A stretch of DNA of 64,000 nucleotides, from the NCBI RefSeq assembly GCF_020084865.1, contig NZ_CP071953.1, forward strand, positions 248,001 to 312,000, given 5' to 3'. Origin of the DNA: Candidatus Kaistella beijingensis. GTDB lineage: Bacteria; Bacteroidota; Bacteroidia; Flavobacteriales; Weeksellaceae. A model generated the notes under the pieces. That model searched no databases. It was not told the DNA's origin and saw nothing but the letters and a program-made list of their open reading frames with translations. The position numbers and the translations under genes were made by a program. This document shows positions 11,625-57,174 of the stretch, piece by piece. Positions within the stretch are counted from its first letter, which is position 1; each line of letters starts with the position of its first letter.

Positions 11625-11823
11625 TTTTAATAACACTGTATTTGCAAAAGGCGGGGTTGAATATATAATAGAAAAACCCGATGCATTTAGTCGCAACTTG
11701 CTTTTCATATTGTATTTTTTTGTAATTTAACAATCTGAAAAAGCAATTTGATTCGTTCGGTCGAAATTGAACTTGCAGTTAAATTTAGCCCGCCCTTCGC
11801 AAATACTTTTTCCGTTAGCAGAA
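11625..11823 (+). repeat. attC-like site 1 (long class, 199 bp)
   Basis: Left core TTTTAATAAC and right core GTTAGCAGAA enclose an imperfect palindrome (GTATTTGC..GGCGGGG against CCCGCC..GCAAATAC) with an inner hairpin GCTTTTCATATTG / CAATCTGAAAAAGC. It is almost identical to sites 6 and 7. Confidence 0.85.
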
Positions 11824-11840
11824 ATTATAAAAATAAAAGC

Positions 11841-14636
11841 ATGAAAAAACAACAACTGGTTCTATTTATATTTTTGATTATTGTAATAAAATCACAATCA
11901 CCAATTAATTCGAATATAAAAGAAACAAATTTTTTCCCTGGTTCTGAACCTAGTGGATTATTACAAATTAATGACAATATAATATTTGCCGCTAATACAG
12001 GCAGTGGTATCGAACCGCATAAATATAATTTGCAAACGAATTCGGCAAATATGATACAGAATATTAATAATAATTCTGGTAATAGTATGATCAAGAATGA
12101 ATTTTATAAAATAAACAATAGTATATTTTATTTTGCTACAGACAATTCTAATCTTCAGTTATGGACAACAGATTTAGGTACAAATACAACTTCAAAAGTA
12201 AAAGACTTAAATATCTACTATTCTAATTCAAATAACATTATAGCTAAAATTCTAAATAATAAACTATATTTTGTTTTTCAGCAAAAACTTTATGTAAGTG
12301 ATGGAACAGCAAACGGAACAATTCAAATTACCAATGCAGCTAATGTTGGAAATTATTTGTACGAAAATAATGGATATATATTTTTCTTTGGTAATAGCGC
12401 TAATTACGGTAGAGAAATATGGAAAACAGATGGTTCCATCGCTGGCACAACTGTCGTAAAAGATATTAATTCTGGTATAAACTCTTCAATCGTTTATGGT
12501 TATGAAAAAATGTATAACTTTAATAATAAAATTGTATTTATAGCCAGAGATAGTAATTATAATTTAGGATTGTGGAGTACCGACGGGAATGAAATAAACA
12601 CTATAAATTTTTATACTCTGACTAACAATTCTACTTTTTATGATTTTGATTTTCAAAATTATAATAAACTTCTTTTTACCGTTAATGGAGATTTGTGGAA
12701 AACGGACGGAACTTTTATTGGTACCAATCTTATTTACAATAGTATTCCTACCATTAATAAACTCTCATACTATAAAAACAAAATTTACATTGATACAAAT
12801 ACTAATTTATTTTATGTAAATCAATTAGACCAAGTAAATCCTCTAACAGATTCTAACAATACAGTATTTCAAACAATTTCCTCTAGTAATAATGGTAACT
12901 ATTTAGCTTTAAAGGAATATAATAACAATTCTTCGCCAATCTATTTTTATGATAATAGTAATATATTAAAAACAAATATAAAATCTGCAAATGATAGTAA
13001 ATTCATTGAATATCAAAATCGATTAATTTTTTCAGGTTATATTGATTCTTATATTGATTTTTATACTACATATAAAAATACCGAATTATTTTCTTATGAT
13101 CCCTTGAATAATATTTCAAACATTGAAAAAGATTTAATTTATAATAGTTATGGAACACCTCGTTATCATACCGAAGTAAATGGAGAGGTTTATTTTCTAT
13201 CTAAAGATGGCTACTATTATCAAGTATATAAAATAGACACTAATGACAACTTGGTAAAATTAAGTAACAATTTGGAAGAGACTTTTCCAGACAATATATT
13301 AAAATATAAACCTGTGACTGTTTCGGGTAATTTTATTTATTTTCACAACAGTAAAATATACAGAACAAATACAGCAACCAGTTCAACGGATCAAATCTTA
13401 CCTCCTGCAAATGAAAAAATATATGGAATATACCCACCAAACAATAACAAAGTCATTATAAAAACATATAATAGTTCTGATAAATATATGAGAATTTGGA
13501 GTTTGGAAAATAATTCAACAAATTTTTCTTTATTAATAGAAAAATATGTCAATAATATGCCGTCTTCCCTATTAAACGTTGATAATGACTTTGTAAAGAC
13601 AGACAACGGAATTTATTTTAAAATGATAAATAATTCTACAACAGAAATTTGGAAATCTGACGGTACGTTGAGTAATACGATAAAAATAACAGAAGTTGGT
13701 AGCATATACGCATTAAAATGTTTCTTAGGTATTCTTAATAATAAAGTGTTTTTTGCAAATAATCTATATACAAACTTGCAAAATTCAGAGCTATATTATA
13801 TTGATGATAGTAGTAACCAAAAATTTTTGATTCAAAACAATTATCGATTTATTGACGGAAATTCATTTGTTGCAAATAATAAATTATATTTTTTCACTTC
13901 TAGTAGTAACGGTTATTACACTGAAATGCATAAAACAGATGGGACTACACAGGGGAGCCAATTAATTACTACAAGTTATTTCACTGGTGAGAATTCTATA
14001 ACTAAATGTGGAAATCAAAATTATTTTCTTGCTAATTATGGAGGAAATCAAACAACGGGAATTTATAGGACTGATGGTACAACAAATGGAACGTTTTTGG
14101 TTGTTGATGGTTATCAAACTGGAGTTATCGGACAAAACTTCACTTTTTTAAATTGTCTAAATAATGAAATCTATGCAGTAGATTCTATGCAAAGAATTTT
14201 CAAAACTAATGGAAGTGCTGGAAACTATCAACAACTGAGTTTTACAATAAATAATCAACCTTTACAACAACCTGCCTATACGTGGATTAAAAGTTTATAT
14301 ACAAATAATTCAAAAATTTATTTTAGTGTCGATCAATATAACAATCACGGTGAAGAACTTTTTGTTTCTGATTCAATTAACACATTAGACGTTGGTAATG
14401 ATAATATTGTAAGTAATAAGATATTAATCTATCCGAACCCTGCAACTAATGAGTTTAATGTTATACTAAATAACGGCGAAAAAATAAAAAAAATAATCAT
14501 ATATGATGCAAATGGTAGAATTATCTCTACACATAATAATACAATAATAAATGTTAAAAATTTATCAGCTGGAATATATTTTCTAAATATTTTTACTAAT
14601 TTCAAAAACTATAGTAGTAAACTAATTAAAAAATAA
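11841..14636 (+). CDS. Secreted ELWxxDGT-repeat protein with T9SS sorting domain
   Basis: From the ATG at 11841 the product has 931 residues. It has a signal peptide (about residues 1-20), then many beta-propeller-like repeats with the pattern E(I/L)WKTDGTxxGT (for example REIWKTDGSIAGT and MHKTDGTTQGS), and a C-terminal type IX secretion sorting domain (YPNPATNEFNV ... SAGIYFL). It should be exported across the outer membrane by T9SS and attached to the surface or released. A longer frame from 11748 would start inside the repeat site and is rejected. This is a very large single-gene cassette. Confidence 0.85.
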   Translation: MKKQQLVLFIFLIIVIKSQSPINSNIKETNFFPGSEPSGLLQINDNIIFAANTGSGIEPHKYNLQTNSANMIQNINNNSGNSMIKNEFYKINNSIFYFATDNSNLQLWTTDLGTNTTSKVKDLNIYYSNSNNIIAKILNNKLYFVFQQKLYVSDGTANGTIQITNAANVGNYLYENNGYIFFFGNSANYGREIWKTDGSIAGTTVVKDINSGINSSIVYGYEKMYNFNNKIVFIARDSNYNLGLWSTDGNEINTINFYTLTNNSTFYDFDFQNYNKLLFTVNGDLWKTDGTFIGTNLIYNSIPTINKLSYYKNKIYIDTNTNLFYVNQLDQVNPLTDSNNTVFQTISSSNNGNYLALKEYNNNSSPIYFYDNSNILKTNIKSANDSKFIEYQNRLIFSGYIDSYIDFYTTYKNTELFSYDPLNNISNIEKDLIYNSYGTPRYHTEVNGEVYFLSKDGYYYQVYKIDTNDNLVKLSNNLEETFPDNILKYKPVTVSGNFIYFHNSKIYRTNTATSSTDQILPPANEKIYGIYPPNNNKVIIKTYNSSDKYMRIWSLENNSTNFSLLIEKYVNNMPSSLLNVDNDFVKTDNGIYFKMINNSTTEIWKSDGTLSNTIKITEVGSIYALKCFLGILNNKVFFANNLYTNLQNSELYYIDDSSNQKFLIQNNYRFIDGNSFVANNKLYFFTSSSNGYYTEMHKTDGTTQGSQLITTSYFTGENSITKCGNQNYFLANYGGNQTTGIYRTDGTTNGTFLVVDGYQTGVIGQNFTFLNCLNNEIYAVDSMQRIFKTNGSAGNYQQLSFTINNQPLQQPAYTWIKSLYTNNSKIYFSVDQYNNHGEELFVSDSINTLDVGNDNIVSNKILIYPNPATNEFNVILNNGEKIKKIIIYDANGRIISTHNNTIINVKNLSAGIYFLNIFTNFKNYSSKLIKK

Positions 14637-14657
14637 TCTTTTGCAATTAAATATAAC

Positions 14658-14796
14658 TTCTGCTAACAAGGCATTGCCAAAAGCGAGGCTGAAGTACATT
14701 TTTAATAGTTTAAGTAATTAATTAAAAATATGGTATTTATATTGAAGATCGGTGCAAAAAAAACCCGCCTTCGGCAATACCCCACCGTTAGCAGAA
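14658..14796 (+). repeat. attC-like site 2 (short class, 139 bp)
   Basis: Left core TTCTGCTAAC is the exact reverse complement of the start of its own cassette (GTTAGCAGAA at 11814). Arms read GGCATTGCCAAAAGCGAGGC and CCCGCCTTCGGCAATAC. The right core is GTTAGCAGAA. It lacks the GCTTTTC/GAAAAAGC inner hairpin of the long class. Confidence 0.85.
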
Positions 14797-14820
14797 ATTT
14801 TATCCAAAGACCTGTCATAA

Positions 14821-15368: not shown

Positions 15369-15568
15369 TTCTGCTAACATAGTATTTGCAAAAGGCGGGG
15401 TTGAATATTTAATAGAACTATTAGTTGCATTTAGTCGCGCCTGCTTTTTCGTTCCACAATTTTTTTGTAGTTTAGTTCCACGAAAAAAGCATTCGCTTTG
15501 GTTAGTCGAAATTGAACTTTTCGTCCAATTTAGCCCGCCCTTCGCAAATACTTTTTCCGTTATCTGTA
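15369..15568 (+). repeat. attC-like site 3 (long class, 200 bp)
   Basis: Left core TTCTGCTAAC matches the cassette start GTTAGCAGAA at 14787. Right core is GTTATCTGTA. The inner hairpin is GCTTTTTCGTTCCAC.. / ..GTTCCACGAAAAAAGC with TGTAGTTTAG in its loop. Confidence 0.85.
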
Positions 15569-16229: not shown

Positions 16230-16284
16230 TATGGCTACAGATAACATATTCTATGTCAAAAAACAAGTACTATTTTGAATTTTT

Positions 16285-17289
16285 TCATGCCGCAAATTGT
16301 TGTGTTTTCACGTAGGGAGTCCCACGCTCGATGACCGCAAAAATCCGGTTGACGAGTTTGAATTTAACGTTGTTTAGCGCCAACATTTTCGGTTTTCCTT
16401 CCGCTTGTTTTCGCTCGTAGTAGAGCTTCAGCTCGTGGTCGTACTTTATTGCCGTCAGTGAAAGCAGGTGCAGTATCGACTTCATCTTTTTGTCGGCAAA
16501 AGGGCTCACCCTGCTTTTCCCCCGGATGCTGGTTCCCGATGTTCTCCCGAATGGCGCTATTCCGCAGTAGCACGCATATTTTCTCGCATTCCTGAACCGC
16601 AGAAATCCCTTCGTGGTGAGCAGCAGATAAAGCGTTCCGATTTCTCCGACTCCCGGTATGCTGCGCAACAGCTCCTGTTTAGCGTTAAGGTCTTCATCGC
16701 TCCTGACGAGTTTGCTTATTGCCAGTTCCAGGGTTTTCAGCTGGGATTTCAGGAACGTTACCGTCTTTCTGTTGGCGGATTTCACGCTCCTGTAGACTTC
16801 CTTTCCCAAGAATTCCTCGCCCTCCGAAGTGCGCTCGAAACTTTTTATCGCGGCGATGAGCTTTTCGCGTTCCGCATTCATTAGGTTAAGTTGCTGGTAG
16901 ATGATTTCGGGAACTTCCGAGAGTTGGATCTTGTCCTCGTTGCGCATCGCGTATTTGGCGATCTCCTGCGCATCTATCGTGTCGCTCTTGCCTCTGGAAA
17001 GCCCTCTGGAACGCTTGATCTCGATTGCGGGGACTTCCGCATAGTTCCAACCGTTCCCGCACAGGAACACCGCCAGAATAGTGGAGTAGATTCCGGTATG
17101 CTCGAAGACCACGAGTGTGTCCTCCATCATCAGTCCTTCCTTTGAAAACGCTGCAAATAGCGTCTGCAGAGACTTTTTCTCATTGGCGACGCTTCCTCTC
17201 TTTACCGTGTCTCTTTCCGAAATCAGGAGGCAGTAGTCCAAGGTGTTTTTGGAGACGTCGAAACCCAGGTAGTTTTTGTAATTTTTCAT
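16285..17289 (-). CDS. IS110-family transposase (copy 1, intact)
   Basis: The 334-residue recombinase has an N-terminal RuvC-like DEDD domain (FDVSKNTLD, FEHTGIY, SDTIDAQ) and a C-terminal Tnp domain (SIPGVGEIG, CGIAPFGRTSGTS, serine-containing catalytic region). It belongs to the family that uses a bridge RNA to pair donor and target DNA. It differs from copy 2 by a few residues and keeps the normal C-terminus (VKTQQFAA). Confidence 0.93.
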   Translation of the reverse strand: MKNYKNYLGFDVSKNTLDYCLLISERDTVKRGSVANEKKSLQTLFAAFSKEGLMMEDTLVVFEHTGIYSTILAVFLCGNGWNYAEVPAIEIKRSRGLSRGKSDTIDAQEIAKYAMRNEDKIQLSEVPEIIYQQLNLMNAEREKLIAAIKSFERTSEGEEFLGKEVYRSVKSANRKTVTFLKSQLKTLELAISKLVRSDEDLNAKQELLRSIPGVGEIGTLYLLLTTKGFLRFRNARKYACYCGIAPFGRTSGTSIRGKSRVSPFADKKMKSILHLLSLTAIKYDHELKLYYERKQAEGKPKMLALNNVKFKLVNRIFAVIERGTPYVKTQQFAA

Positions 17290-17299
17290 ATCTTTATTT

Positions 17300-17456
17300 T
17301 TTGAAAGGTGGTTGAATGGTTTTAAAATCTTTAGTAGTTCTTGTCTAATATTCTATTTGAAACATCAGTTCAACCTTTATGCAAAACAGAGTACTGATAT
17401 GTTAGTTAAATCTGATTTAATTTACAGGGTTTTTTAGGTCACTCTGTTTTGCTTTC
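17300..17456 (-). ncRNA. Bridge RNA of IS110 copy 1
   Basis: Reading the minus strand, stem GCAAAACAGAG / CTCTGTTTTGC (17442-17452 and 17381-17391) encloses a loop with AAAACCC (17427-17433) and CTAACAT (17399-17405). These two segments match the two strands of the insertion target CTAACAT^GGGTTTT. A second stem, AAAGGTTGAA / TTCAACC..CTTT (17369-17378 and about 17303-17316), encloses ATAGAATAT (17348-17356) and TAAAGAT (17327-17333), which match the two element ends as joined in the circle. This is the layout of a target loop followed by a donor loop, as in IS621-type bridge RNAs. Confidence 0.8.
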
Positions 17457-17735
17457 TAAAGGTATTTATTTTATGGATGCAAAGTAAAGATGGGTTTTGC
17501 AAGATGCGGGGTTGAAGGAAATCTCAGAGAAATTCTAGAAAATACCCGCAAAAACTTTTCCATTTTTTAGTTTTTTCGTAATTTTAAAAAATGGAAAAAG
17601 TTTTTGCTAGCGTTCGGTCATCTCTTGAAATTTCGGTTGCAGTAGTCCGCACCTCGCAAAGCCCTTTCCCGTTGTACGACATTTTAGAAAGATTCCGCTT
17701 TAAAACAAAAATTTTGCATTGATTTAACTTTTTAC

Positions 17736-17761
17736 TATATTTGTATCCAAATGAATACAAA
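17736..17761 (+). promoter_or_regulatory. Promoter and operator of the HigBA-like pair
   Basis: A -7 box TATATTTG (17736-17743) overlaps an inverted repeat TTTGTAT-N8-ATACAAA (17740-17761) that ends right at the toxin start codon. This suggests autorepression by the toxin-antitoxin complex. Confidence 0.6.
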
Positions 17762-18061
17762 ATGTACTTTATTGAGAAAACAAATGAGTTTGACAAGTGG
17801 TTCCGAAAATTAAAAGATATCCGAGCAAAGGCTAAAATCTTGTTCCGAATCCAGAAATTACAAAACGAAGAACATTTTGGAGATTGCAAACCTGTTGGAA
17901 ATGGAATCAGCGAATTGCGAATAAATTTTGCAAAGGGCTACAGAATCTATTTCAAAGAGACAGATGGAAAAATTATTATCTTGTTAATTGGCGGCGACAA
18001 ATCAAGCCAACAAAAAGATATAGAAAAAGCGAAAGAAATTTGGGAAAAAATAAAAGAATAA
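17762..18061 (+). CDS. HigB/RelE-like toxin
   Basis: The 99-residue basic protein matches the phage-derived Gp49-like/HigB toxin family (FDKWFRKLKDIRAKAKI .. ELRINFAKGYRIYF .. LLIGGDKSSQQKDIEKA). Members are ribosome-dependent mRNA nucleases. It precedes its antitoxin by 3 bases, the reversed order typical of this family. The start at 17762 follows the operator; an upstream TTG at 17741 would put the operator inside the gene. Toxin-antitoxin pairs are typical stabilising cargo of large cassette arrays. Confidence 0.88.
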   Translation: MYFIEKTNEFDKWFRKLKDIRAKAKILFRIQKLQNEEHFGDCKPVGNGISELRINFAKGYRIYFKETDGKIIILLIGGDKSSQQKDIEKAKEIWEKIKE

Positions 18062-18064
18062 AGA

Positions 18065-18349
18065 ATGGATATTTCAAAATTTGACATTGCAGATTATTTG
18101 GACAGCAACGAAATGATTGCTGAATATCTTAATGTTGTCCTTGAAGAAGGCGATGATTCTGAAATTGTTGTAGCAATTGGTAATATTGCAAAAGCAATCG
18201 GAATGACAAAAATTGCAGAAGAAACTGGAATGAGCAGACCGAGTTTGTACAAAGCACTATCTGAAGGTGCAAAACCACAGTTTTCAACAATTATGAAAGT
18301 TTTGAAAGCAGTTGGCGGACAAATAAGAGTTAATCCTATAACTGCATAA
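18065..18349 (+). CDS. HigA-like antitoxin (addiction module antidote)
   Basis: The 94-residue protein has the helix-turn-helix of the putative addiction-module antidote family (IGMTKIAEETGMSRPSLYKAL) and an acidic N-terminus (LEEGDDSEIV) likely to contact the toxin. It neutralises the toxin encoded just upstream and probably binds the palindrome at 17740-17761. It ends 8 bases before the next attC-like core. Confidence 0.88.
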   Translation: MDISKFDIADYLDSNEMIAEYLNVVLEEGDDSEIVVAIGNIAKAIGMTKIAEETGMSRPSLYKALSEGAKPQFSTIMKVLKAVGGQIRVNPITA

Positions 18350-18356
18350 AAAAAAC

Positions 18357-18559
18357 GTCGTACAACATGGGTTTGGCAAAAGCGGGGCGGAGAGTTATCA
18401 TTTAGAAGATTTCAGCACTTTTAGCCGCAAAAAACCATTTCGTTTTTTTATTTTTTGTAATTTTGAAAAAACGAAAATGGTTTTTGCTCGGTTCGGGTTT
18501 GGTTGGAATTTCCGGCTTTCTTATCCCCGCCTTCGCCAAGCCCTTTCCCGTTATCTGCA
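18357..18559 (+). repeat. attC-like site 5 (long class, 203 bp)
   Basis: Left core GTCGTACAAC is the exact complement of the cassette start GTTGTACGAC at 17671. Right core is GTTATCTGCA. Inner hairpin is CATTTCGTTTTTT / AAAAAACGAAAATG with a perfect -7-like box TAATTTTG in the loop. Bases after the left core (ATGGGTTTGGC) are also a near match to the IS110 target. Confidence 0.85.
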
Positions 18560-19059: not shown

Positions 19060-19060
19060 C

Positions 19061-19259
19061 TGCAGATAACATAGTATTTGCAAAAGGCGGGGTTGAATAT
19101 ATAATAGAAAAACCTGATGCATTTAGTCGCAATTTGCTTTTCATATTGTATTTTTTTGTAATTTAACAATCTGAAAAAGCAATTTGCTTCGTTCCGTCGA
19201 AATTGAACTTTCCGTCCAATTTAGCCCGCCCTTCGCAAATACTTTTTCCGTTAGCTGTA
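19061..19259 (+). repeat. attC-like site 6 (long class, 199 bp)
   Basis: Left core TGCAGATAAC complements the cassette start GTTATCTGCA at 18550. Right core GTTAGCTGTA. The sequence is nearly identical to sites 1 and 7. Confidence 0.87.
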
Positions 19260-19922: not shown

Positions 19923-20120
19923 TACAGCTAACATAGTATTTGCAAAAGGCGGGGTTGAAACCACGTAGAAAGGTTTGTTGCATTTAGTCGCAACTTGCTT
20001 TTCATATTGTATTTTTTTGTAATTTAACAATCTGAAAAAGCAATTTGCTTCGTTCGGTCGAAATTGAACTTTCAGTTAAATTTAGCCCGCCCTTCGCAAA
20101 TACTTTTTCCGTTAGCTGCA
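19923..20120 (+). repeat. attC-like site 7 (long class, 198 bp)
   Basis: Left core TACAGCTAAC complements the cassette start GTTAGCTGTA at 19250. Right core GTTAGCTGCA. Inner hairpin GCTTTTCATATTG / CAATCTGAAAAAGC with TGTAATTTAA in the loop. Confidence 0.87.
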
Positions 20121-20737: not shown

Positions 20738-20937
20738 TGCAGATAACATAGTATTTGCAAAAGGCGGGGGAAAGTGCAAAATTGAAAAGTGGAAAAAATA
20801 ATCCGCTCATGCTTTTCAATTCTGCATTTTTTGTGTAAGTTAGCAGTATTGAAAAAGCATTCGCTACGTTTGGTCTTCCTTGAACTTTTTGTTCTTCGAA
20901 AGCCCGCACTTCGCCAATACTTTTTCCGTTAGCGGTC
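20738..20937 (+). repeat. attC-like site 8 (long class, 200 bp)
   Basis: Left core TGCAGATAAC pairs with the cassette start GTTAGCTGCA (20111) with one mismatch. Right core GTTAGCGGTC. Inner hairpin is GCTTTTCAAT.. / ..ATTGAAAAAGC with TGTAAGTTAG in the loop. Confidence 0.85.
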
Positions 20938-22386: not shown

Positions 22387-22426
22387 AAATGAGTATGAAT
22401 AAAAAATGCCGAACCGCTAACATATT

Positions 22427-23464
22427 CTATGTCAAAAAACAAGTACTATTTTGAATTTTTTCATGCCGCAAATTGTTGTGTTTCACGTAGGAAGTCCCAC
22501 GCCCTATGACCGCAAAAATCCGGTTGACGAGTTTGAATTTAACGTTGTTTAGCGCCAACATTTTCGGTTTTCCTTCCGCCTGTTTTCGCTCGTAGTAGAG
22601 CTTCAGCTCGTGGTCGTACTTTATTGCCGTCAGTGAAAGCAGGTGCAGTATCGACTTCATCTTTTTGTCGGCAAAAGGGCTCACCCTGCTTTTCCCCCGG
22701 ATGCTGGTTCCCGATGTTCTCCCGAATGGCGCTATTCCGCAGTAGCACGCATATTTTCTCGCATTCCTGAACCGCAGAAATCCCTTCGTGGTGAGCAGCA
22801 GATAAAGCGTTCCGATTTCTCCGACTCCCGGTATGCTGCGCAACAGCTCCTGTTTAGCGTTAAGGTCTTCATCGCTCCTGACGAGTTTGCTTATTGCCAG
22901 TTGCAGGGTTTTCAGCTGGGATTTCAGGAACGTTACCGTCTTTCTGTTGGCGGATTTCACGCTCCTGTAGACTTCCTTTCCCAAGAATTCCTCGCCCTCC
23001 GAAGTGCGCTCGAAACTTTTTATCGCGGCGATGAGCTTTTCGCGTTCCGCATTCATGAGGTTAAGTTGCTGGTAGATGATTTCGGGAACTTCCGAGAGTT
23101 GGATCTTGTCCTCGTTGCGCATCGCGTATTTGGCGATCCCCTGCGCATCTATCGTGTCGCTCTTGCCTCTGGAAAGACCTCTGGAACGCTTGATCTCGAT
23201 TGCGGGGACTTCCGCATAGTTCCAACCGTTCCCGCACAGGAACACCGCCAGAATAGTGGAGTAGATTCCGGTATGCTCGAAGACCACGAGTGTGTCCTCC
23301 ATCATCAGTCCTTCCTTTGAAAACGCTGCAAATATCGTCTGCAGAGACTTTTTCTCATTGGCGACGCTTCCTCTCTTTACCGTGTCTCTTTCCGGAATCA
23401 GGAGGCAGTAGTCCAAGGTGTTTTTGGAGACATCGAAACCCAGGTAGTTTTTGTAATTTTTCAT
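22427..23464 (-). CDS. IS110-family transposase (copy 2, altered C-terminus)
   Basis: The sequence is that of copy 1 until residue 325, where a one-base deletion shifts the frame. The last nine residues (TQQFAA region) are replaced by about twenty unrelated ones, giving 345 residues. DEDD and serine regions are intact, with an E-to-G change beside the last catalytic Asp (DAQG instead of DAQE). It may still be active because the change affects only the tail. Confidence 0.88.
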   Translation of the reverse strand: MKNYKNYLGFDVSKNTLDYCLLIPERDTVKRGSVANEKKSLQTIFAAFSKEGLMMEDTLVVFEHTGIYSTILAVFLCGNGWNYAEVPAIEIKRSRGLSRGKSDTIDAQGIAKYAMRNEDKIQLSEVPEIIYQQLNLMNAEREKLIAAIKSFERTSEGEEFLGKEVYRSVKSANRKTVTFLKSQLKTLQLAISKLVRSDEDLNAKQELLRSIPGVGEIGTLYLLLTTKGFLRFRNARKYACYCGIAPFGRTSGTSIRGKSRVSPFADKKMKSILHLLSLTAIKYDHELKLYYERKQAEGKPKMLALNNVKFKLVNRIFAVIGRGTSYVKHNNLRHEKIQNSTCFLT

Positions 23465-23474
23465 ATCTTTATTT

Positions 23475-23631
23475 TTTGAAAGGTGGTTGAATGGTTTTAA
23501 AATCTTTAGTAGTTCTTGTCTAATATTCTATTTGAAACATCAGTTCAACCTTTATGCAAAACAGAGTACTGATATGTTAGTTAAATCTGACTTAATTTAC
23601 AGGGTTTTTTAGGTCACTCTGTTTTGCTTTC
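23475..23631 (-). ncRNA. Bridge RNA of IS110 copy 2
   Basis: It has the same two-loop structure as copy 1, with one base change outside the guides. Target guides are at 23602-23608 and 23574-23580, donor guides at 23523-23531 and 23502-23508. Both copies are therefore programmed for the same attC-like target. Confidence 0.78.
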
Positions 23632-23809
23632 TAAAGGTATTTATTTTATGGATGCAAAGTAAAGATGGGTTTTGCAAAATGGCGGGTTAAGTGCTACTAT
23701 GACAGTTTAGCGCTAGGTTCAAGTTCAGTTTTTCAAATGAACATTTGTGCTGATAATCCGCCACTTCGCAAAGCCCCTTACCGTTAGCAGAAATTCCTAA
23801 ACAGAACAT

Positions 23810-25028: not shown

Positions 25029-25226
25029 TTCTGCTAACATTGTATTGGCAAAATGCGGGCTTGAATTTTGCATTGAATTTGTAAAATTTACTTTCGCTGC
25101 TGCTTTTCATATTGTTTTTTTATGTAATTTAGTCAATCTGAAAAAGCATCGGCTTCGTTTGTGAATTCTTGAACTTCCAGTTCTTCGAATTCCCCGCACT
25201 TCGCCAATACTTTTTACGTTACCGGG
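25029..25226 (+). repeat. attC-like site 10 (long class, 198 bp)
   Basis: Left core TTCTGCTAAC complements the cassette start GTTAGCAGAA (23783). Right core GTTACCGGG. The interior is almost identical to site 12, 3.7 kb downstream. The loop carries TGTAATTTAG. Confidence 0.87.
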
Positions 25227-25255
25227 CAGTTTAATACGACACTCAAACATACAAT

Positions 25256-26644
25256 ATGAACATAGAAAATGTTAGACAATTCATCAAAGAGAAAGCGGAA
25301 CAGTTCGGTGCCAAGACAGACAACGAATTTAATAAGCCTTATGTTGAGCGTAACAACACGGGACAAGAGGCTTTAAAAGACAACGGAGCTTACTTTGGTT
25401 TTATTCATCCAGAAGAAGAAGCTTCGGGACCATTCCACGACTTTTCACTAACTATATTTCCAAACGACCAAGACCAACCTTGGTTAGTTTGTTTGGGTAT
25501 TGGTTCCAGTGGTTTTAAAAATGACTATGAACTAGCCACCTATCCAGGCCTAAGACGACTATTTTCTAAACTTATTAATGAAAAGGGATTTTGTAAATCG
25601 GACTTTTCTGACATAGAAACAAGTTTGCCAAAGTCCATCACTGGCAGCCTAGATTTACAACACATAAAAAACACAATAAAGACTTACACAAAAGTTTTAC
25701 CAGCTTGCCAAATTATTGATGACCCGGAAAGTGAAGAAGGCAAGAAAACAATTGCTGCATTTGTAGCAGGTTATGCAAAACTTAGGGACTGGCCTTCAAA
25801 CAAAGACCACCGCAAAGCTATTTCAGAAGCTTTGGAACCTTTCTTGAAGACAGAGACAATTGATGAAGCAGAAGAAATTAAAAATCTTTTGAACGAAAGA
25901 AAATATATCGTACTTCAAGGGCCTCCAGGTACTGGAAAAACAAGAACAGCAAAAGAAGTTGCAGAAAAAATTAAAGCCAAAACATTTTTTACCCAGTTTC
26001 ACGCAGAGACAAGTTTTTCAGATTTTATTTTTGGTATTCGCCCAGACTTAAACAATAAAGAACTTAGCTACAAAGAAAACTTGGGGAGTTTTACCGAGGC
26101 TTTGAAGTATGCGAAAGACCACGAGAATGAAAAAGTCCTTTTGATAATTGACGAAATAAACAGAGCAAATCTTTCGAATGTTTTAGGCCCTATTTTCTAT
26201 TTGTTTGAACACAAGATGGATAAATCGAATGTTGAAATTGAAATTTCTCCTGGTTTCAAGATTAACAAACTCCCAGATAATTTTTGTGTAATCGCAACTA
26301 TGAATACAGCTGACAGAAGCTTGGCGGTAGTGGACTTTGCATTGCGTAGACGATTTGCTTGGTATACATTAAAACCAAAGGCAATTAAATCGAACCAATT
26401 TTTCAAAGAGGATTTTGCAAGAATTCAAGAGATATTTGATTGGTATGCCTCAAGCAATGAATTATCGCTGCAACCTGGACAAGGCTATTTTATTGCAGAC
26501 AGCGAAGAAGAAATGACAAATCGTATCAAGTACGAAATATTCCCATTGATAAAAGAATATTTACAAGAAGGGTTGATTAGAAATGCCAAAGAAGAATTCA
26601 ATAATTATTTCGCTATTCGAATAAACAAATCACTTTTTGAATGA
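25256..26644 (+). CDS. mcrB: McrB-like AAA+ restriction subunit
   Basis: The 462-residue protein has an N-terminal DNA-recognition-type region (residues 1-190, not recognised) and a McrB-family AAA+ domain: Walker A GPPGTGKT near 222-229, Walker B LLIIDEINRAN, and the signature MNTADRS followed by ALRRRF. McrB uses nucleotide hydrolysis to translocate DNA for the nuclease McrC, usually against modified DNA (type IV restriction). Its stop overlaps the mcrC start by four bases. With mcrC it fills one cassette of 2.9 kb. Confidence 0.88.
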   Translation: MNIENVRQFIKEKAEQFGAKTDNEFNKPYVERNNTGQEALKDNGAYFGFIHPEEEASGPFHDFSLTIFPNDQDQPWLVCLGIGSSGFKNDYELATYPGLRRLFSKLINEKGFCKSDFSDIETSLPKSITGSLDLQHIKNTIKTYTKVLPACQIIDDPESEEGKKTIAAFVAGYAKLRDWPSNKDHRKAISEALEPFLKTETIDEAEEIKNLLNERKYIVLQGPPGTGKTRTAKEVAEKIKAKTFFTQFHAETSFSDFIFGIRPDLNNKELSYKENLGSFTEALKYAKDHENEKVLLIIDEINRANLSNVLGPIFYLFEHKMDKSNVEIEISPGFKINKLPDNFCVIATMNTADRSLAVVDFALRRRFAWYTLKPKAIKSNQFFKEDFARIQEIFDWYASSNELSLQPGQGYFIADSEEEMTNRIKYEIFPLIKEYLQEGLIRNAKEEFNNYFAIRINKSLFE

Positions 26645-28014
26645 GCAAGCCATTAGATGTTTTTTGCGAAGTGCCTTGCTTAACTGAACAATCAAGACAG
26701 TTAAGTGGAATTGCTTTGCAAAAAAAATGGTTTAAATCGGCTGACAAAAGAATTATAGGCCAGTACCTTCAAAAGTTTATAGACTACAACTCATCGCAAT
26801 TCAAGTTCATAGGCGTTCAGCCATTAATTATTGGCTCTGACCAAAATACCTCATTGACATTCCGTTCTTCCAGCTTCATTGGCACTATTCCTCTAAGAGC
26901 ATCTGACACAGGAAAGCAAATAGGTGATTTTGTTGTAATGCCAAGGTTTACTGGTCGTGACCGTTTTGAAGATTACATTGAAATTCTGAATTTACTTGGA
27001 ACAGAAATTAGCCCGGAAGTTATTGACAGCTTTCCTCTTGCTTCTGGTAAAAACTTCCGACCACCGTTATATTTAGAAGCAGTTAAATTCATTGCTTCTC
27101 TTGAAGCATTACTATCAAGACCTTGGCGTAAGTTTGATAACATTGAAAAAATATCTAGCCAACCTTCTGGACAAATCAATTGGACCAAATACATCAACAA
27201 CGAATACAAAATTGAAAATCGTTTAAAGTTTCCAACTCGGAAAAATATTTTAAGTGAGCTTCATAGCGAATATGCCGAAATAAGATATGTATTTGACATT
27301 TGTAAGAATGAATTACTTTCTTCTAATACGCCACAAAGAATAAAAAATACAATCCGTGTAAAGCTTAGTTTCATTGAAGAAAAATTATATCACCATAAAC
27401 CTAAAGCGACAAATAATATTGTTGGCAAGTCATCCGACAGCCCAACAGTAAAAGCTTGTAAAGAACAAGCTAATAAAATCCTTAACTTTAATTTGGTTGA
27501 CAGCACAGCATGGAGAGTAGACTTCTCAGATGTTTTTGAAAAATTCGTTCAACACATTTTTAAAGCAGTTGCTAGAGAGACCGGAGGAAAATTATTTGCG
27601 AATTTCAAGTTCCACTCACGAACTTCTAAGCATTATTCGTGGGAACTAAAACACATTGAACCAGACGCTATATATCAAAAGGAAAACCTCTTAGTATTCA
27701 TAGATGCTAAATACAAATCAAACCTTTATAACAAGTTCGACAATAGCGAAACTCTGAAAGACGACCACAGACACGATTTACACCAAATTATGGCTTATAC
27801 TTCTTTCAGTAAGACAGACTTTAAATATGGATTTCTTTGTTATCCATCAGACCAGTTAGAATTGAAATCTATAAAATATAAGAACGGAATTAACGAAGTA
27901 GCAAACACAGTTTTAGTGATGGGTATTCCATTAAAAAAAGACAGTATCAATGAAGCAAAACGACTACTAACAAATGAACTTAATGAGCTTGAAAGAAGAA
28001 CAACGACCCGGTAA
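26641..28014 (+). CDS. mcrC: McrC-like PD-(D/E)XK nuclease subunit
   Basis: The 457-residue product matches the McrC family: an N-terminal part for McrB contact and a C-terminal PD-(D/E)XK nuclease (EPDAIYQ .. LLVFIDAKYKSN, about residues 339-360). It cuts DNA as part of McrBC. The stop codon TAA (28012-28014) lies inside the left core of the next attC-like site, so gene and site share bases. Confidence 0.87.
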   Translation: MSKPLDVFCEVPCLTEQSRQLSGIALQKKWFKSADKRIIGQYLQKFIDYNSSQFKFIGVQPLIIGSDQNTSLTFRSSSFIGTIPLRASDTGKQIGDFVVMPRFTGRDRFEDYIEILNLLGTEISPEVIDSFPLASGKNFRPPLYLEAVKFIASLEALLSRPWRKFDNIEKISSQPSGQINWTKYINNEYKIENRLKFPTRKNILSELHSEYAEIRYVFDICKNELLSSNTPQRIKNTIRVKLSFIEEKLYHHKPKATNNIVGKSSDSPTVKACKEQANKILNFNLVDSTAWRVDFSDVFEKFVQHIFKAVARETGGKLFANFKFHSRTSKHYSWELKHIEPDAIYQKENLLVFIDAKYKSNLYNKFDNSETLKDDHRHDLHQIMAYTSFSKTDFKYGFLCYPSDQLELKSIKYKNGINEVANTVLVMGIPLKKDSINEAKRLLTNELNELERRTTTR

Positions 28015-28143
28015 CACGGGTTTGGCAAAAGTGGCGGTTCAGTGCTCCGCAGACACATTTGTGGTTAATCAAAGTTTGGTTCTCCGCATCAACATTTGCG
28101 GTGAAAATCGCCACCTTCGCCAAGCCCGAAACCGTTAGCTGTA
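28007..28143 (+). repeat. attC-like site 11 (short class, 137 bp)
   Basis: Left core CCCGGTAAC complements the cassette start GTTACCGGG (25218) and contains the mcrC stop codon. Right core GTTAGCTGTA. Arms read GGGTTTGGCAAAAGTGGCGG and CGCCACCTTCGCCAAGCCC. Confidence 0.85.
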
Positions 28144-28161: not shown

Positions 28162-28713
28162 ATGGATAAAATGCAATATATTTCAGATTCCGAAAAAGTG
28201 TTCTTAAGTCTTTTAAAAAAATCCACTAAAACTAAGGAGGAAATTGAGCAAATGAGAATGGCAGGAGAAATTTTTTCTAATGAGTTACGAGAAGAAACTA
28301 GATATTTACTGAACGAAATAAAAGAAAATGGACTTGAAATAGATTCTATATGGGATTTAGTAAATACACAGCAAAGCTATCCTGAAGCTATTGAACCTTT
28401 GCGAAAACACTTATCTGGAAACTACCATATAAGAAACAAAGAAGGCATCATTCGGGCTTTAGGTGTCAAAGAATCTGGAATGAAAGAAATAATTGCTCTT
28501 CTTAATGAATATGGCAAATTCGACGATGAAAATTATAATTTTTCAGTAGCACTTTCAATTCATAACATCATGAAGTTTTACACAGTCTCAGAGTTAAGAA
28601 AATTTAATGAAGACAATGACGAAATATTACATGAATTAATGACTGCAAAAAAAATTGCTTTATTGAAATTTCAAAAGTTAATTGAAGAATTAATACTAAA
28701 AAACTTCAGCTAA
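28162..28713 (+). CDS. Hypothetical helical protein (183 aa)
   Basis: A soluble, charged, mostly helical protein without signal peptide. I do not recognise a family. Its middle part (YHIRNKEGIIRALGVKESG) suggests HEAT-like helical repeats. It follows the mcrBC cassette but is a separate cassette. The stop codon TAA overlaps the left core of site 12. Confidence 0.6.
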   Translation: MDKMQYISDSEKVFLSLLKKSTKTKEEIEQMRMAGEIFSNELREETRYLLNEIKENGLEIDSIWDLVNTQQSYPEAIEPLRKHLSGNYHIRNKEGIIRALGVKESGMKEIIALLNEYGKFDDENYNFSVALSIHNIMKFYTVSELRKFNEDNDEILHELMTAKKIALLKFQKLIEELILKNFS

Positions 28714-28903
28714 CATTGTATTGGCAAAATGCGGGCTTGAATTTTGCATTGAATTTGTAAAATTTACTTTCGCTGCTGCTTTTCATATTGTTTTTTTATG
28801 TAATTTAGTCAATCTGAAAAAGCATCGGCTTCGTTTGTGAATTCTTGAACTTCCAGTTTTTCGAATTCCCCGCACTTCGCCAATACTTTTTCCGTTATGG
28901 GCA
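28707..28903 (+). repeat. attC-like site 12 (long class, 197 bp)
   Basis: Left core CAGCTAAC complements GTTAGCTG of the cassette start (28134). Right core GTTATGGGCA. Interior is near-identical to site 10. TGTAATTTAG in the loop. Confidence 0.86.
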
Positions 28904-30348: not shown

Positions 30349-30541
30349 GTTCAACATGGGTTTTGCAAGATGCAGGGTTGAAAGAAATCTCAGAAATATT
30401 CTAGATAATACCCGCAAAAAACTTTTCCATTTTTTTTGTAAATTTGAAAAAATGAAAATGGTTTTTGCTAGAGATTGGTTCTCCTCTCCACTTTCGGTTG
30501 CAGTAGACCGCACCTCGCAAAGCCCTTTCCCGTTATACAAT
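30349..30541 (+). repeat. attC-like site 14 (long class, 193 bp)
   Basis: Left core GTTCAAC complements GTTGAAC at 29458. It continues ATGGGTTTTGC, the intact form of the IS110 target. Right core GTTATACAAT. Loop contains TAAATTTG, a perfect -7-like box. Very similar to site 4. Confidence 0.86.
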
Positions 30542-31513: not shown

Positions 31514-31651
31514 ATCGTATAACAGCCGTTTTGCAAAAACGGGGGTTTCGTGCTTCTATGACAGTAAAGTGCTAAATTCAAGTTTTGTACTTCTAATGAA
31601 GTTTAGTGCTTAAAAACCCCGCCTTCGCAAAGCGGCAAACCGTTATCTGCA
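31514..31651 (+). repeat. attC-like site 15 (short class, 138 bp)
   Basis: Left core ATCGTATAAC pairs with the cassette start GTTATACAAT (30532) with one mismatch. Right core GTTATCTGCA. Arms CCGTTTTGCAAAAACGGGGG and CCCCGCCTTCGCAAAGCGG. Confidence 0.84.
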
Positions 31652-31681
31652 ACCAGATTTGACCAATATTACGTAAATAAA

Positions 31682-31713
31682 TTTGGTTTAAATACCAAAA
31701 CTTGGTATATTTG
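31682..31713 (+). promoter_or_regulatory. Promoter and operator of parDE
   Basis: A -33 TTTG (31682-31685) and -7 TATATTTG (31706-31713) flank and overlap a palindrome ATACCAA-N3-TTGGTAT (31692-31708). The geometry suggests autorepression by ParD. Confidence 0.65.
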
Positions 31714-31738
31714 ATTTTGAATATTAAATCAAATTGTT

Positions 31739-31987
31739 ATGGCAAAAAATACTTCGATTTTATTGGGCGATTATTTCGACAATTTTATCAATTCACAAAT
31801 TAAAAATGGAAAATATTCTTCAGCAAGTGAAGTTGTAAGAGCCGCTTTAAGAATGTTTGAACACGAGGAAACTAAAAAATCTGAATTAATTAAAGAACTT
31901 AAAAAAGGTGAAAAATCGGGATTTGCGGCTAGTTTTAATAGAGAAACTTTCAAACAAAACTTACATCAAAAATATTCTGCAGAATAA
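31739..31987 (+). CDS. ParD-type antitoxin
   Basis: The 82-residue protein has the ribbon-helix-helix of ParD (TSILLGDYFDNFINSQIKNGKYSSASEVVRAAL, residues 5-37) and a C-terminal toxin-binding tail. It overlaps the ParE start by one base (TAATG). It is expected to bind the palindrome at 31692-31708 and to neutralise ParE. Confidence 0.9.
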   Translation: MAKNTSILLGDYFDNFINSQIKNGKYSSASEVVRAALRMFEHEETKKSELIKELKKGEKSGFAASFNRETFKQNLHQKYSAE

Positions 31988-32286: not shown

Positions 32287-32303
32287 ATAACCGCAATTCT
32301 GGC

Positions 32304-35036: not shown

Positions 35037-35078
35037 ATTTTGCAGACACCCTAAGAAACCAAATAGTTACAACAACAT

Positions 35079-36020: not shown

Positions 36021-36024
36021 AACA

Positions 36025-37246: not shown

Positions 37247-37385
37247 AACGGCTAACATCGCATTGGCAATAGTGGGGCTGACAGTTGTAAATTCAACATT
37301 TGGTATTCTATCGGGCATTTGTGCAAATGTAGTGCTGACGTTTTTCAAATGCACCACCATCGCCAATATGTATACCGTTAGCGGT
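37247..37385 (+). repeat. attC-like site 19 (short class, 139 bp)
   Basis: Left core AACGGCTAAC pairs with GTTAACCGT (36152) with one mismatch. Right core GTTAGCGGT. Arms CGCATTGGCAATAGTGGGGC and CACCATCGCCAATATG. Confidence 0.8.
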
Positions 37386-38782: not shown

Positions 38783-38919
38783 AACCACTAACATCGGTTT
38801 GGTAAAAGCAGGGCTGACTGAAATGCATCAACAGTTGTACTTCTATCAGCTTTTCTGCTGTATTTGGTCTGACGGTTTTCAAAGCACTACCTTCGCAAAT
38901 ACTTTTAACGTTGTGCGTC
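38783..38919 (+). repeat. attC-like site 20 (short class, 137 bp)
   Basis: Left core ACCACTAAC pairs with GTTAGCGGT (37377) with one mismatch. Right core GTTGTGCGTC. Arms ATCGGTTTGGTAAAAGCAGGGC and CTACCTTCGCAAATAC. Confidence 0.8.
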
Positions 38920-39514: not shown

Positions 39515-39562
39515 GACGCACAACATCGGATTTGCGTAATGGCGGGTCAAGTGCTAAAATCC
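39515..39562 (+). repeat. Truncated attC-like site 21 (left arm only)
   Basis: Left core GACGCACAAC exactly complements the cassette start GTTGTGCGTC (38910). The left arm (GGATTTGCGTAATGGCGGGTC) follows, but no right arm or right core is present. The array is broken here, and ordinary genes follow. Confidence 0.75.
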
Positions 39563-39590
39563 AACTTCGCACCTCTCACCTTTAATCACT

Positions 39591-54362: not shown

Positions 54363-54473
54363 TGGAGAAAACAAAAGCTATAGAAAAATATCTTGGTCGA
54401 ACCTATTTTTGTGTTTGTGGATTGTACAAATCAATTGATAAAAGAAATCCGAAAAAGCAGTACAGCTAACATT
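54363..54473 (+). other. Short frame ending in the left core of site 22
   Basis: A 36-codon frame from ATG 54363 ends with TAA at 54468-54470 inside the core TACAGCTAAC. It may be the end of a truncated cassette gene. No family recognised. Confidence 0.3.
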
Positions 54474-54598
54474 GTATTGCTAAAATGCGTGGCTGAACGG
54501 CTTCGATTGGAGATTTATACAAGGTTTGACCAACGTTCTTCAATTGAAATTTAGCGCTAAAATCCCCGCTTTCGGCAATACCCAAAACGTTCGATTCA
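54461..54598 (+). repeat. attC-like site 22 (short class, 138 bp)
   Basis: Left core TACAGCTAAC; its partner cassette start is missing, so that cassette is truncated. Right core GTTCGATTCA. Arms TTGTATTGCTAAAATGCGTGGC and CCCCGCTTTCGGCAATAC. Confidence 0.8.
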
Positions 54599-54645
54599 AT
54601 AATTTTCCGACATTTCGAATATTTTTATAATTGAAAAATCGTACA

Positions 54646-54659
54646 TATATTTGTACAAA
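54646..54659 (+). promoter_or_regulatory. Promoter of the YefM/YoeB-like pair
   Basis: A -7 box TATATTTG (54646-54653) overlaps the palindrome TTTGTACAAA (54650-54659), 15 bases before the antitoxin start. Confidence 0.55.
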
Positions 54660-54674
54660 TAAAAATACAAAAAT

Positions 54675-54929
54675 ATGTTAATCGCAAGTGTTTCTGATTT
54701 TAGAAAAGATATAAAATCATATTTAGACCGAGTTGCAAAAAATTTTGAAACTCTTATCATTAATCGTGGAAAAGACTCTGGAATTGTGGTGATGTCTCTT
54801 GAAGAATACAATTCTTTAATGGCGACAAATCACGAATTATCGTCAAGAACTAATGAAATGCGTCTTGATTCTGCTATTCAAAAATTGAAAAATGGAAAAT
54901 CCTTTTCAAAGGAATTAATTGTAGAATAA
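54675..54929 (+). CDS. YefM/Phd-family antitoxin
   Basis: The 84-residue protein shows the Phd/YefM pattern: SVSDFRKDIKSYLDRVAKNFETLIINRGKDSGIVVMSLEEYNSL (residues 5-48), followed by an acidic/helical tail for toxin binding. It precedes its toxin by one base. It should autoregulate through the palindrome at 54650-54659. Confidence 0.9.
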   Translation: MLIASVSDFRKDIKSYLDRVAKNFETLIINRGKDSGIVVMSLEEYNSLMATNHELSSRTNEMRLDSAIQKLKNGKSFSKELIVE

Positions 54930-54930
54930 G

Positions 54931-55188
54931 ATGAAATATATTTTCGTTGATGAATCTTGGGAAGATTATCTTTATTGGCAAAAAACCGATAAGAAAAAAT
55001 TGAAACGAATAAATGATTTATTGAAAGATATTTCTCGAAGTCCATTTGATGGAATTGGGAAACCTGAGGCTTTAAAACATAAATATTCTGGGTTTTGGTC
55101 GAGAAGAATTGATGATGAACATAGATTGATATATAAATATCAAGAAGGAGAAATTTTAATTGCAAAATGTAGATTTCATTACGACTAA
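54931..55188 (+). CDS. YoeB/Txe-family toxin
   Basis: The 85-residue toxin matches YoeB: ESWEDYLYWQKTDKKKLKRIN, the catalytic region GKPEALKHKYSGFWSRRI and DDEHRLIY, and the C-terminal CRFHYD with its catalytic His. YoeB cuts mRNA at the ribosome. It is the third toxin-antitoxin pair in the cassettes. Confidence 0.92.
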   Translation: MKYIFVDESWEDYLYWQKTDKKKLKRINDLLKDISRSPFDGIGKPEALKHKYSGFWSRRIDDEHRLIYKYQEGEILIAKCRFHYD

Positions 55189-55202
55189 AAAACAAAGTAT
55201 TA

Positions 55203-55401
55203 CTGAAGCTAAAATAGTATTGCTAAAATGCGGGATTGAAGTGTGAATTGAAAAGCAGAATATTTAACCGCATATGCTTTTCAATTCCATAAAAAAGTGT
55301 AATTTAGTTTCATTGAAAAAGCAATTTTGCTTCGTTCGGTCGAAATTGACTTTTTGGTAAATTTAGCCCGCCCTTCGCAAATACTTTTTCCGTTAGCCGT
55401 A
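55203..55401 (+). repeat. attC-like site 23 (long class, 199 bp, degenerate left core)
   Basis: Left core is altered (CTGAAGCTAAAA); expected TGAATCGAAC. Right core GTTAGCCGTAA. Inner hairpin GCTTTTCAATTCC.. / ..CATTGAAAAAGC with TGTAATTTAG in the loop. Confidence 0.78.
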
Positions 55402-56216: not shown

Positions 56217-56220
56217 CAAC

Positions 56221-56417
56221 TACTGCTAATATAGTATTGCTAAAATGCGGGGTTAAAGTGTGAATTGAAAAGCAGAATATTTAACCGCTCATGCTTTTCA
56301 ATTCTACATTTTATTGTAATTTAGTTTAATTGAAAAAGCATCGGCTACGTTTGGTCGAATTTGAACTAAAGTTCTTCTTTCTAACGCACTTCGCCAATAC
56401 TTTTTCTGTTACCTGAA
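56221..56417 (+). repeat. attC-like site 24 (long class, 197 bp)
   Basis: Left core TACTGCTAAT is a mutated match to GTTAGCCGTA (55392). Right core GTTACCTGAA. Loop contains TGTAATTTAG. Confidence 0.8.
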
Positions 56418-56436
56418 ATTTTAAAGCAAAATTGAC

Positions 56437-57111
56437 ATGAAAAGTTATTGTAACAAGTGTAATCGACAAACTAACCAAATAATATTACAAGAAGTTAAAA
56501 CTTCTTATGAAGATGACGACCATTTATGGTGGGAAGAAAATAACTATCAGATTATTAAATGTGGAGGATGTGATGAAGTAAGTTATCGAACAGTTTCTAC
56601 AAATGCACAATTGGCATCTTTTGCAGAATTTGGATCACCATATTCTCAAGTATTATATCCAATGAGAGGACCAAATAGCGTTCCAACAAAAAACTTTAAA
56701 AACATACCTCTCAAGATTAAAGAAATTTAGAGAGAGACTATTGATGCTTTTAATAAGAACCAATTAATATTATGCTCAGGAGGTTTAAGAGCTCTTGTAG
56801 AAGCTATTTTTCTAGAAAAGAAAATTTTAGGAATTAATAAAACTGATAAAAAAGGAAAAAAGTATCTATGTGATAATTTGCAGTGCAAAATTGATGCGTT
56901 ACACGAAAATAAATTATTAGTAAAAGAAAATGCAGAAAGTTTACATGAATTAAGATTTCTAGGAAATGAAGCACTTCATGAATTAGAAAAACCATCTATT
57001 GAAGAATTAAAATTAGCAATTGAAATATTAGAATTGACCCTCGAAAACATTTATGAATTACAGCATAAAGCAATGATTTTAAAACAGAAAAAGACCATAA
57101 GAAAAAAATAA
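56437..57111 (+). pseudogene. DUF4145 protein gene interrupted by an amber codon
   Basis: The frame starts at 56437 with a zinc-ribbon (CNKCNRQTN .. KCGGCDEVS), meets TAG at 56728-56730, and continues in the same frame (ETIDAFNKNQLILCSGGLRALVEAIF .. HELRFLGNEALHELEKPS) to 57111. Together it would be a 224-residue DUF4145 protein, a relative of the gene at 15591. Read-through is possible but a nonsense mutation is simpler. Confidence 0.75.
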
Positions 57112-57114
57112 AAC

Positions 57115-57174
57115 GGCAGGTAACACAGATTTTGCAAAATGCGGGATTGAAGGAAATCTCAGCAATATTCTGGA
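57115..57174 (+). repeat. Truncated attC-like site 25 (left arm only)
   Basis: Left core CAGGTAAC complements GTTACCTG of the cassette start (56408). The left arm (GATTTTGCAAAATGCGGG..) resembles sites 4 and 14 and then stops; no right core follows. This is the right end of the array, followed by mnmE. Confidence 0.75.

Follow-up and report, generated by a model that had tools for sequence, protein, structure and literature searches.

The window analysed here is the whole stretch of 64,000 nucleotides of Candidatus Kaistella beijingensis DNA presented above, which corresponds to C1:248001-312000 of a 2.82-Mb single-contig genome (G000) belonging to the Chryseobacterium group, genus Kaistella. 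It carries attC-shaped direct repeats from approximately 11.6 to 57.2 kb, and the cassettes between them start with TT and finish with their own attC-like site. The complementarity between the start and the end of a cassette covers AAC and 7 bases, is interrupted by one unpaired position (A opposite mostly C) and continues for 4 more bases. Very probably a sedentary chromosomal integron runs through the window, which holds its distal part; the recombinase of this integron would be P0002, a 360-residue tyrosine recombinase encoded at G000:C1:191482-192561 on the minus strand, 55 kb to the left of the window.

Attachment sites and cassette ends

A preliminary description of this DNA had listed 25 related palindromes. 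The attC-shaped sites are real, but their number is 24, one fewer, as counted from the left (AAC, or AAA/AAT) and right (GTT) core positions. Twenty of them are complete and uninterrupted, two are split by IS110-family copies (sites 4 and 9) and two are left halves (sites 20 and 24). The complete uninterrupted sites measure 123-189 nt and form two size classes, of 123-126 and 182-189 nt. The left core is AAC in 21 of the 24 sites (AAA, AAA and AAT in the rest) and the right core is GTT in 22 out of 22, the sites having been placed by reference to these letters. Of the R''/R' core logic proposed in that description, the AAC/GTT portion holds, but GTTRRRY fits only 1 of the 22 right cores, as read from the site list, and the sites do not follow the full RYYYAAC/GTTRRRY consensus. 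Likewise, sites occur over the proposed span (11625..57174), but the portion between 39.6 and 54.4 kb holds no site and ordinary genes instead of a run of cassettes, and the true start of the array lies 67 kb further left. The sites, in window coordinates, are the following:

11632..11816, +, site 1; AAC..GTT, first site to the right of a 26-kb site-free gap of the array
14665..14789, +, site 2, short type
15376..15561, +, site 3
16243..17673, +, site 4, interrupted after AACA(T) by an IS110-family copy
18364..18552, +, site 5
19068..19252, +, site 6
19930..20113, +, site 7
20745..20930, +, site 8
22419..23785, +, site 9, interrupted by another IS110-family copy at a place identical to that in site 4
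25036..25220, +, site 10
28013..28136, +, site 11, short type
28712..28896, +, site 12
30353..30534, +, site 13; an IS91-like remnant abuts its left end, and its left core is unpaired with the right core of the preceding site
31521..31644, +, site 14, short type
32311..32493, +, site 15
34845..35029, +, site 16, left core AAA
36031..36154, +, site 17, short type
37254..37379, +, site 18, short type
38790..38912, +, site 19, short type
39522..39570, +, site 20, left half only, right edge approximate
54468..54591, +, site 21, short type
55211..55394, +, site 22, left core AAA
56228..56410, +, site 23, left core AAT
57122..57170, +, site 24, left half only, right edge approximate; right end of the array, before mnmE at 57317

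Twenty-three places on the plus strand of the window matched a covariance model trained on the 20 complete sites. These 20 are necessarily among them, and the remaining three correspond to half-site 24 and to the right portions of sites 4 and 9. Three weak matches on the minus strand all overlap window sites. Cassette ends were also scanned for independently of any site model, which gave 11 on the plus strand and 0 on the minus strand, compared with 0-2 (mean 0.8) on the plus strand of ten dinucleotide shuffles. When the 20 sites were folded as DNA, the energy of the bottom strand was below that of the top strand in 15, and z was below -2 in 17 (60 mononucleotide shuffles), the remaining values being -2.0, -1.2 and 0.1. 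RNAalifold predicted an inner stem of the GTATTTGC / GCAAATAC type, with compensatory changes in at least one sequence for 7 of 11 predicted pairs; the covariation term was small (-0.88 kcal/mol) and some pairs were broken in up to 7 sequences.

In the circular form of an integron cassette, its start (after G|TT) and its end (before AAC) are joined, so the bases before AAC of one site should pair with those after GTT of the preceding site. Within the window, such same-cassette pairing held at 127 of 176 positions where permutation gave a mean of 76.6 (standard deviation 5.7), and none of 20,000 permutations reached the observed sum. On average 5.8 of the 8 positions paired for the ends of the same cassette, 3.6 for those of the same site and 3.4 for all other pairings. 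This complementarity is the predicted mark of DNA that was once circular and joined at G|TT. In three genomes, positions 1-7 gave 207/252, 222/231 and 258/287 matches (permuted means 116, 127 and 130), position 8 paired in only 1/36, 0/33 and 0/41 cassettes, positions 9-12 paired again, and from position 13 on the pairing was near chance. At position 8 the right base was A in 110 of 110 cassettes, from sites found with a model that holds the flanking columns and may slightly favour a fixed A, and the left base was mostly C. The pattern was much alike in 33 cassette pairs (48 hand-picked sites from 13 loci, two more pairs being skipped) of clade B, a group of P0002 relatives found mostly in Chitinophagaceae: position 7 paired in 17/33, the right base at position 8 was A in 33/33, and some cassettes showed a slightly different small internal loop at positions 7-8. 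As a control we took seven class 1 plasmid regions with 7 cassette pairs, two of which share one end and at least one of which is wrong. Position 8 matched in 4 of these 7 pairs, and on this weak control the fixed mismatch would be special to the cassettes described here. In nine other genomes of the phylum with canonical IntI arrays, strict core patterns recovered almost no sites.

The array head and the recombinase P0002

Along the whole genome, the site model gave 40 matches on one strand between 194.8 and 304.4 kb of C1, a further 2 elsewhere on the same strand, and 3 weak ones on the other strand, two of these atop array sites. The array extends for around 112 kb from its head to the last half-site, and its longest site-free gaps measure 26 kb (C1:233.2-259.6 kb) and 15 kb. 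Two lone sites of the same family lie far from the array, at C1:629049-629255 (L145) and C1:703776-703990 (L146).

An attI-like stretch (..TTGCGTATATTTGATTG|TTAGCAGAA) adjoins the P0002 gene and is followed by the first cassette, whose closing site has the left core TTCTGCTAAC, the complement of the cassette start. Eleven of the 12 same-genus heads looked at agree in this stretch as far as G|TT and vary beyond it; over these 11 heads the last 17 bases before |TT have a mean conservation of 0.93, against 0.63 from +4 on the cassette side, the stretch having been located with the pattern ATATTTG..GTT, whose letters are therefore fixed by choice. The head left out of the alignment is L130, with no motif seen in its stretch. 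TTGCGT(A/G)T is found twice more, at L006:8548, where it falls within the opening codons of the gene, and at 8582. Among the pairs of Kaistella genomes listed, several have homology over the integrase-attI block that stops at most 2 bases from the GTT core, and in the L021/L024 pair it runs some 15 bases further.

P0002 has the domains Phage_int_SAM_4 and Phage_integrase. Its match to the integron integrase profile TIGR02249 comes in two pieces of 104.3 and 86.5 bits, which do not pass the cut-off of 265, and no match over this cut-off was found in its own genome. The alignment of P0002 to the 2a3v chain (VchIntIA, entry name IntI4) breaks at residues 181-247. In VchIntIA, according to the part of PMC3053210 used here, K209, Y210 and W219 contact one extrahelical base, and P232, H240 and H241 the other. 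If the numbering is the same, the stretch unmatched in P0002 would hold those contact residues. In a joint alignment the corresponding loop has 29 residues in 38 of 38 rows of clade A (two pairs of rows come from identical DNA), 29-33 in 17 of 17 rows of clade B and 29-37 in six Xer-type rows, compared with 71 in 8 of 8 IntI rows (a plasmid IntI1 and seven IntI of genomes from this phylum). By this alignment, the family of P0002 is without the IntI-specific insert of about 40 residues, the I2 region near patch III. This insert had been regarded as indispensable for cassette capture.

The three catalytic positions compared (R, H and Y) are kept in every row of clades A and B. P0002 ends in SPLDxL, much like IntI, has an extra N-terminal part of about 80 residues, and finds its best match among solved structures in 4a8e, a XerC-like protein. 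In a quick tree, clades A and B form one group (99), with A nested in B, apart from the six Xer rows (100 in the Shimodaira-Hasegawa-like approximate likelihood ratio test), and IntI forms its own group (100); the branching of IntI relative to the groups without insert has no resolution, and the program warns of long branches. The clade A integrase is divergent from its array, and that of clade B runs in the array direction. In the locus of a basal clade A protein, L164 (G228:C14), a site lies downstream in the direction of the gene, and this locus may represent the transition from layout B to layout A. Inspection by eye of the open reading frames beside P0002, with no family search of each frame, found no IS91-type transposase; such a transposase is presumably present in a separate recombinase group D, where we recognised a motif that we take to be its own.

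Cassette exchange, distribution and contents

Window positions 35028-36141 are 95.9% identical over 1,114 bp to L090:13085-14198, in a 3.09-Mb contig of a Chitinophagaceae metagenome-assembled genome in which a clade B integrase lies 4 kb from the matching cassette. The high identity begins exactly at |TT, after G in the window or A in L090, and fades rightward inside the right arm of the attC-like site, an arm that looks damaged in L090. Two Kaistella species (L130 and L135) have a cassette-bearing stretch 99% alike over 1,073 bp, and two Chitinophagaceae (L085 and L090) such a stretch of 1,447 bp with 92.6% identity. A DNA search of 375 genomes with one cassette gene gave no further copy, and short matches in 12 others. 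The preliminary description had named one gene order in all relatives as the outcome that would speak against mobility. Such an order was not seen: 17 stretches from other species of the genus, compared with the 128-kb region, gave only two DNA matches of at least 300 bp besides the integrase and the IS91-like copies, and some cassettes recur at other places in other genera or species. With one genome per species, the comparison is between species. By sequence only, the cassettes behave as mobile units that would be circular when free.

The distribution of gene and sites was followed in a class draw of 247 genomes, Bacteroidia by inference, and in a phylum-wide draw of 395, with thresholds of E<=1e-50 for P0002-like proteins and E<=1e-4 for site matches. 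In the class draw, P0002-like proteins were found in 115 genomes, site matches in 132 and canonical IntI over the cut-off in 1; in the phylum draw, canonical IntI passed the cut-off in 105 genomes, of which 104 do not belong to the class. P0002 relatives appear common in Bacteroidia and standard integron recombinases seem rare there. Gene and sites co-occurred in 85 genomes, with gene only in 30, sites only in 47 and neither in 85 (Fisher p 1.4e-9, kinship ignored). All 24 same-genus relatives searched have site matches, and the clade A gene is missing in several of them.

A scan based on the complementarity of cassette ends gave 62 cassette candidates in 75 genome-contig loci of P0002 relatives and 12 after shuffling; the scan demands A and a mismatch at position 8, so that it gives no test of them. 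In clade A, cassette starts within 450 bp of the integrase were located 5' of it (5 of 17 genome-contig loci and 8 of 15 same-genus heads) and in no case 3'; in clade B-like loci they were located 3' of it (18 of 51) and in no case 5'. Many of the contigs end within 1.5 kb. Genomes with a P0002-like gene contributed 113 listed sites, of which 32 are no more than 25 kb away from that gene, and 31 of those 32 fit one of the two integron layouts. One genome of the class has three P0002-like genes on G041:C1, at 2.26, 2.36 and 2.63 Mb, each with divergent sites nearby.

Among the genes carried by the cassettes are three toxin-antitoxin pairs, a McrB-like/McrC-like pair, and genes for hydrolases, an HNH protein, a transthyretin-like protein, an HbpS-like protein and unknown proteins. 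Cassettes with assigned contents and the transposases that split sites are as follows:

17672..18550, +, toxin-antitoxin cassette, Gp49-like protein and HI1420-type antidote protein
31643..32491, +, cassette with a ParD/ParE pair
54590..55392, +, cassette with a Phd/YefM and YoeB pair
25219..28134, +, McrB-like/McrC-like cassette; McrB-like AAA protein at 25256-26644, below the family cut-off
26641-28014, weakly McrC-like protein, in cassette 25219..28134
35028..36152, +, alpha/beta hydrolase cassette, gene at 35079-36020
16285..17289, -, IS110-family transposase in site 4
22427..23464, -, IS110-family transposase in site 9

Both IS110-family copies lie at one identical place in their sites, directly behind AACA(T); the attC sites of canonical integrons are targets of some IS1111 relatives, as stated in the part of PMC11187229 used here. 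An Rfam scan named one element only, the DUF805 RNA (RF03081, 80.8 bits), at 28997-29067, at the start of a cassette and before a SCO4226-like gene. Inside cassette 15, positions 32511-33963 hold a split rve-type transposase (32948-33793) with 25-nt inverted repeats.

IS91-like elements, made of a tyrosine recombinase and a transposase that we take to be IS91-like from the motif HPHLHCIVPGGG, abut the left ends of attC-like sites in several Kaistella genomes. DNA resembling the element of the window was found in G005, G007, G009 and G015; the stretch from G007 has two full copies (L126:3237-5304 and 6197-8264), and window 29777-30382 is a remnant. A SAM_4 tyrosine recombinase piece at 29957-30280, considered as an integrase remnant, belongs to this IS91-like element instead.

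The site-free block of 15 kb at 39570-54450 stands between a half-site and a site, as an insertion or rearrangement within the array, and contains an MCRA-family gene, a 3-hydroxyacyl-CoA dehydrogenase, a photolyase and a Na/H exchanger, among others. Window positions 1-11600, within the 26-kb gap, encode KdpA, a sigma-54 regulator and an Arm-type tyrosine recombinase. To the right of mnmE, positions 58932-62768 hold a second Arm-type tyrosine recombinase with DUF6617 and BT4734-like genes, and are probably another mobile element. The two Arm-type recombinases (10178-11395 and 58932-60026) were weighed and set aside.

Interpretation and relation to known systems

The end complementarity, the attI-like stretch and the cassettes common to other genomes support the reading of an integron-type cassette array already put forward in the preliminary description, and several explanations of it have to be weighed. 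That the palindromes are dispersed repeats, of the repetitive extragenic palindromic or the miniature inverted-repeat transposable element type, which merely punctuate genes, agrees with their high copy number, imperfect symmetry and mostly intergenic position, yet 40 sites lie on one strand over 110 kb, the complementarity between the two ends of a cassette exceeds that within a site, and a transferred segment starts at |TT, so that we hold this explanation to be extremely improbable. A cluster of attC sites lacking integron-integrases (CALIN), with canonical attC sites made by a canonical IntI since lost or acting in trans, would draw on the one class genome with such a gene over the cut-off and on its frequency elsewhere in the phylum; against it, the own genome is without a match over the TIGR02249 cut-off, the arrays are headed by a P0002-type gene and the right cores seldom fit GTTRRRY, and it appears very unlikely.

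A true cassette array moved by another recombinase, either the Arm-type enzyme (10178-11395), whose gene ends 236 bp from site 1, or XerC/XerD, Xer-like recombinases being present in the own genome, is an improbable alternative as well. The array does not begin at site 1, the next site being 26 kb to the left and the sites reaching 194.8 kb, and among loci selected for their P0002 relatives many have, beside that gene, both the first cassettes and the conserved G|TT edge of the attI-like stretch. The assignment of the array to a chromosomal integron with P0002 as its recombinase has, in turn, several data against it. The exchange itself is predicted from sequence. With the thresholds given, 47 of the 132 site-bearing genomes have no P0002-like match and 30 of the 115 gene-bearing genomes no site match, with 9 candidate sites scored per genome; G020, a single-contig genome of the same genus, has 18 site matches and only a Xer-like recombinase match, so arrays occur without the enzyme. 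The strict scan gave no cassette start near the integrase in 12 of 17 genome-contig loci of clade A, in 33 of 51 clade B-like ones and in 7 of 15 same-genus heads, and of the 113 sites listed 81 are on a different contig from the gene or over 25 kb away from it. Regarding the cassette ends, 7 of 22 window cassettes match in at most 5 of the 8 flanking positions, the flanking columns of the site model may favour sites with a fixed A, and some class 1 cassettes are also complementary beyond 7 bp (7 pairs, at least one wrong), so that length alone is not distinctive.

With P0002 as the recombinase of a chromosomal integron, the enzyme would join attC with attI, and attC with attC, by exchange at G|TT, and the resulting cassette circles would be recaptured within and between species. 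Because P0002 is without the IntI insert that reads the extrahelical bases of the folded attC, it would have to read its sites in another way, and our guess is that three features replace the insert: the 15-nt end element and its fixed mismatch, the inner stem of the GTATTTGC type, and the additional N-terminal stretch of about 80 residues. We see even chances for the broader proposal that Bacteroidia have their own integron lineage, in which the recombinases never had or lost the I2 insert and the sites are read by the 15-nt end element with a fixed unpaired A together with the N-terminal part; these enzymes may use duplex or cruciform DNA instead of sites folded from a single strand, and could represent missing intermediates or an independent origin of integrons. 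The variant without insert is seemingly the main integron type in the class Bacteroidia. Natural enzymes of this kind at the head of large cassette arrays make the need for the I2 insert directly testable (Escudero et al.), and, if they work as proposed, a large pool of mobile genes in Bacteroidia, with cassettes exchanged between orders, has been overlooked.

Integrons of Bacteroidota with canonical IntI have been reported, in the parts of PMC8618304, PMC9668308 and PMC2426708 used here. IntegronFinder demands an IntI-specific profile, as stated in the same portion of PMC9668308, so that P0002-type enzymes would go unrecognised. The available parts of two further reports name one complete Bacteroidetes integron, that of Salinibacter ruber, for IntegronFinder 2.0 (PMC9024848), and no integron in the isolate of a Chryseobacterium study (PMC13063519). 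The preliminary description was aware of no well-described array in Flavobacteriia, and our search of the open-access literature, with subscription papers and preprints outside it, likewise found no description of Bacteroidia integrons without the insert.

Among known systems, the array resembles a Vibrio-type sedentary chromosomal integron in that the integrase is divergent from a long array on one strand, with an attI-like stretch up to G|TT, cassettes with a 3' attC-like site, toxin-antitoxin cassettes, transfer of single cassettes and clusters without integrase. By contrast, P0002 is without the IntI insert, stays below the TIGR02249 cut-off and has the additional N-terminal part, the cores are seldom GTTRRRY, and the cassettes have a 15-nt end element with a fixed unpaired A. 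Integrons whose integrase runs in the direction of the cassettes occur in Treponema and other groups, and the clade B layout is like theirs, although the clade B proteins are also without the insert (loop of 29-33 residues). Similarity to XerA/XerC-type recombinases is found in the best structural match (4a8e) and in the loop length, whereas the link of P0002 with attI-like stretches and arrays, its SPLDxL end and its place apart in the quick tree set it off from them. For the members without insert of the 'Integron-like' subgroup of simple tyrosine recombinases, the part of PMC8138268 used here gives no cassette arrays. Taken with its attI-like and attC-like sequences and the evidence for cassette sharing, the predicted system is an integron by its anatomy, whose recombinase fails the enzyme test that defines canonical integrons.

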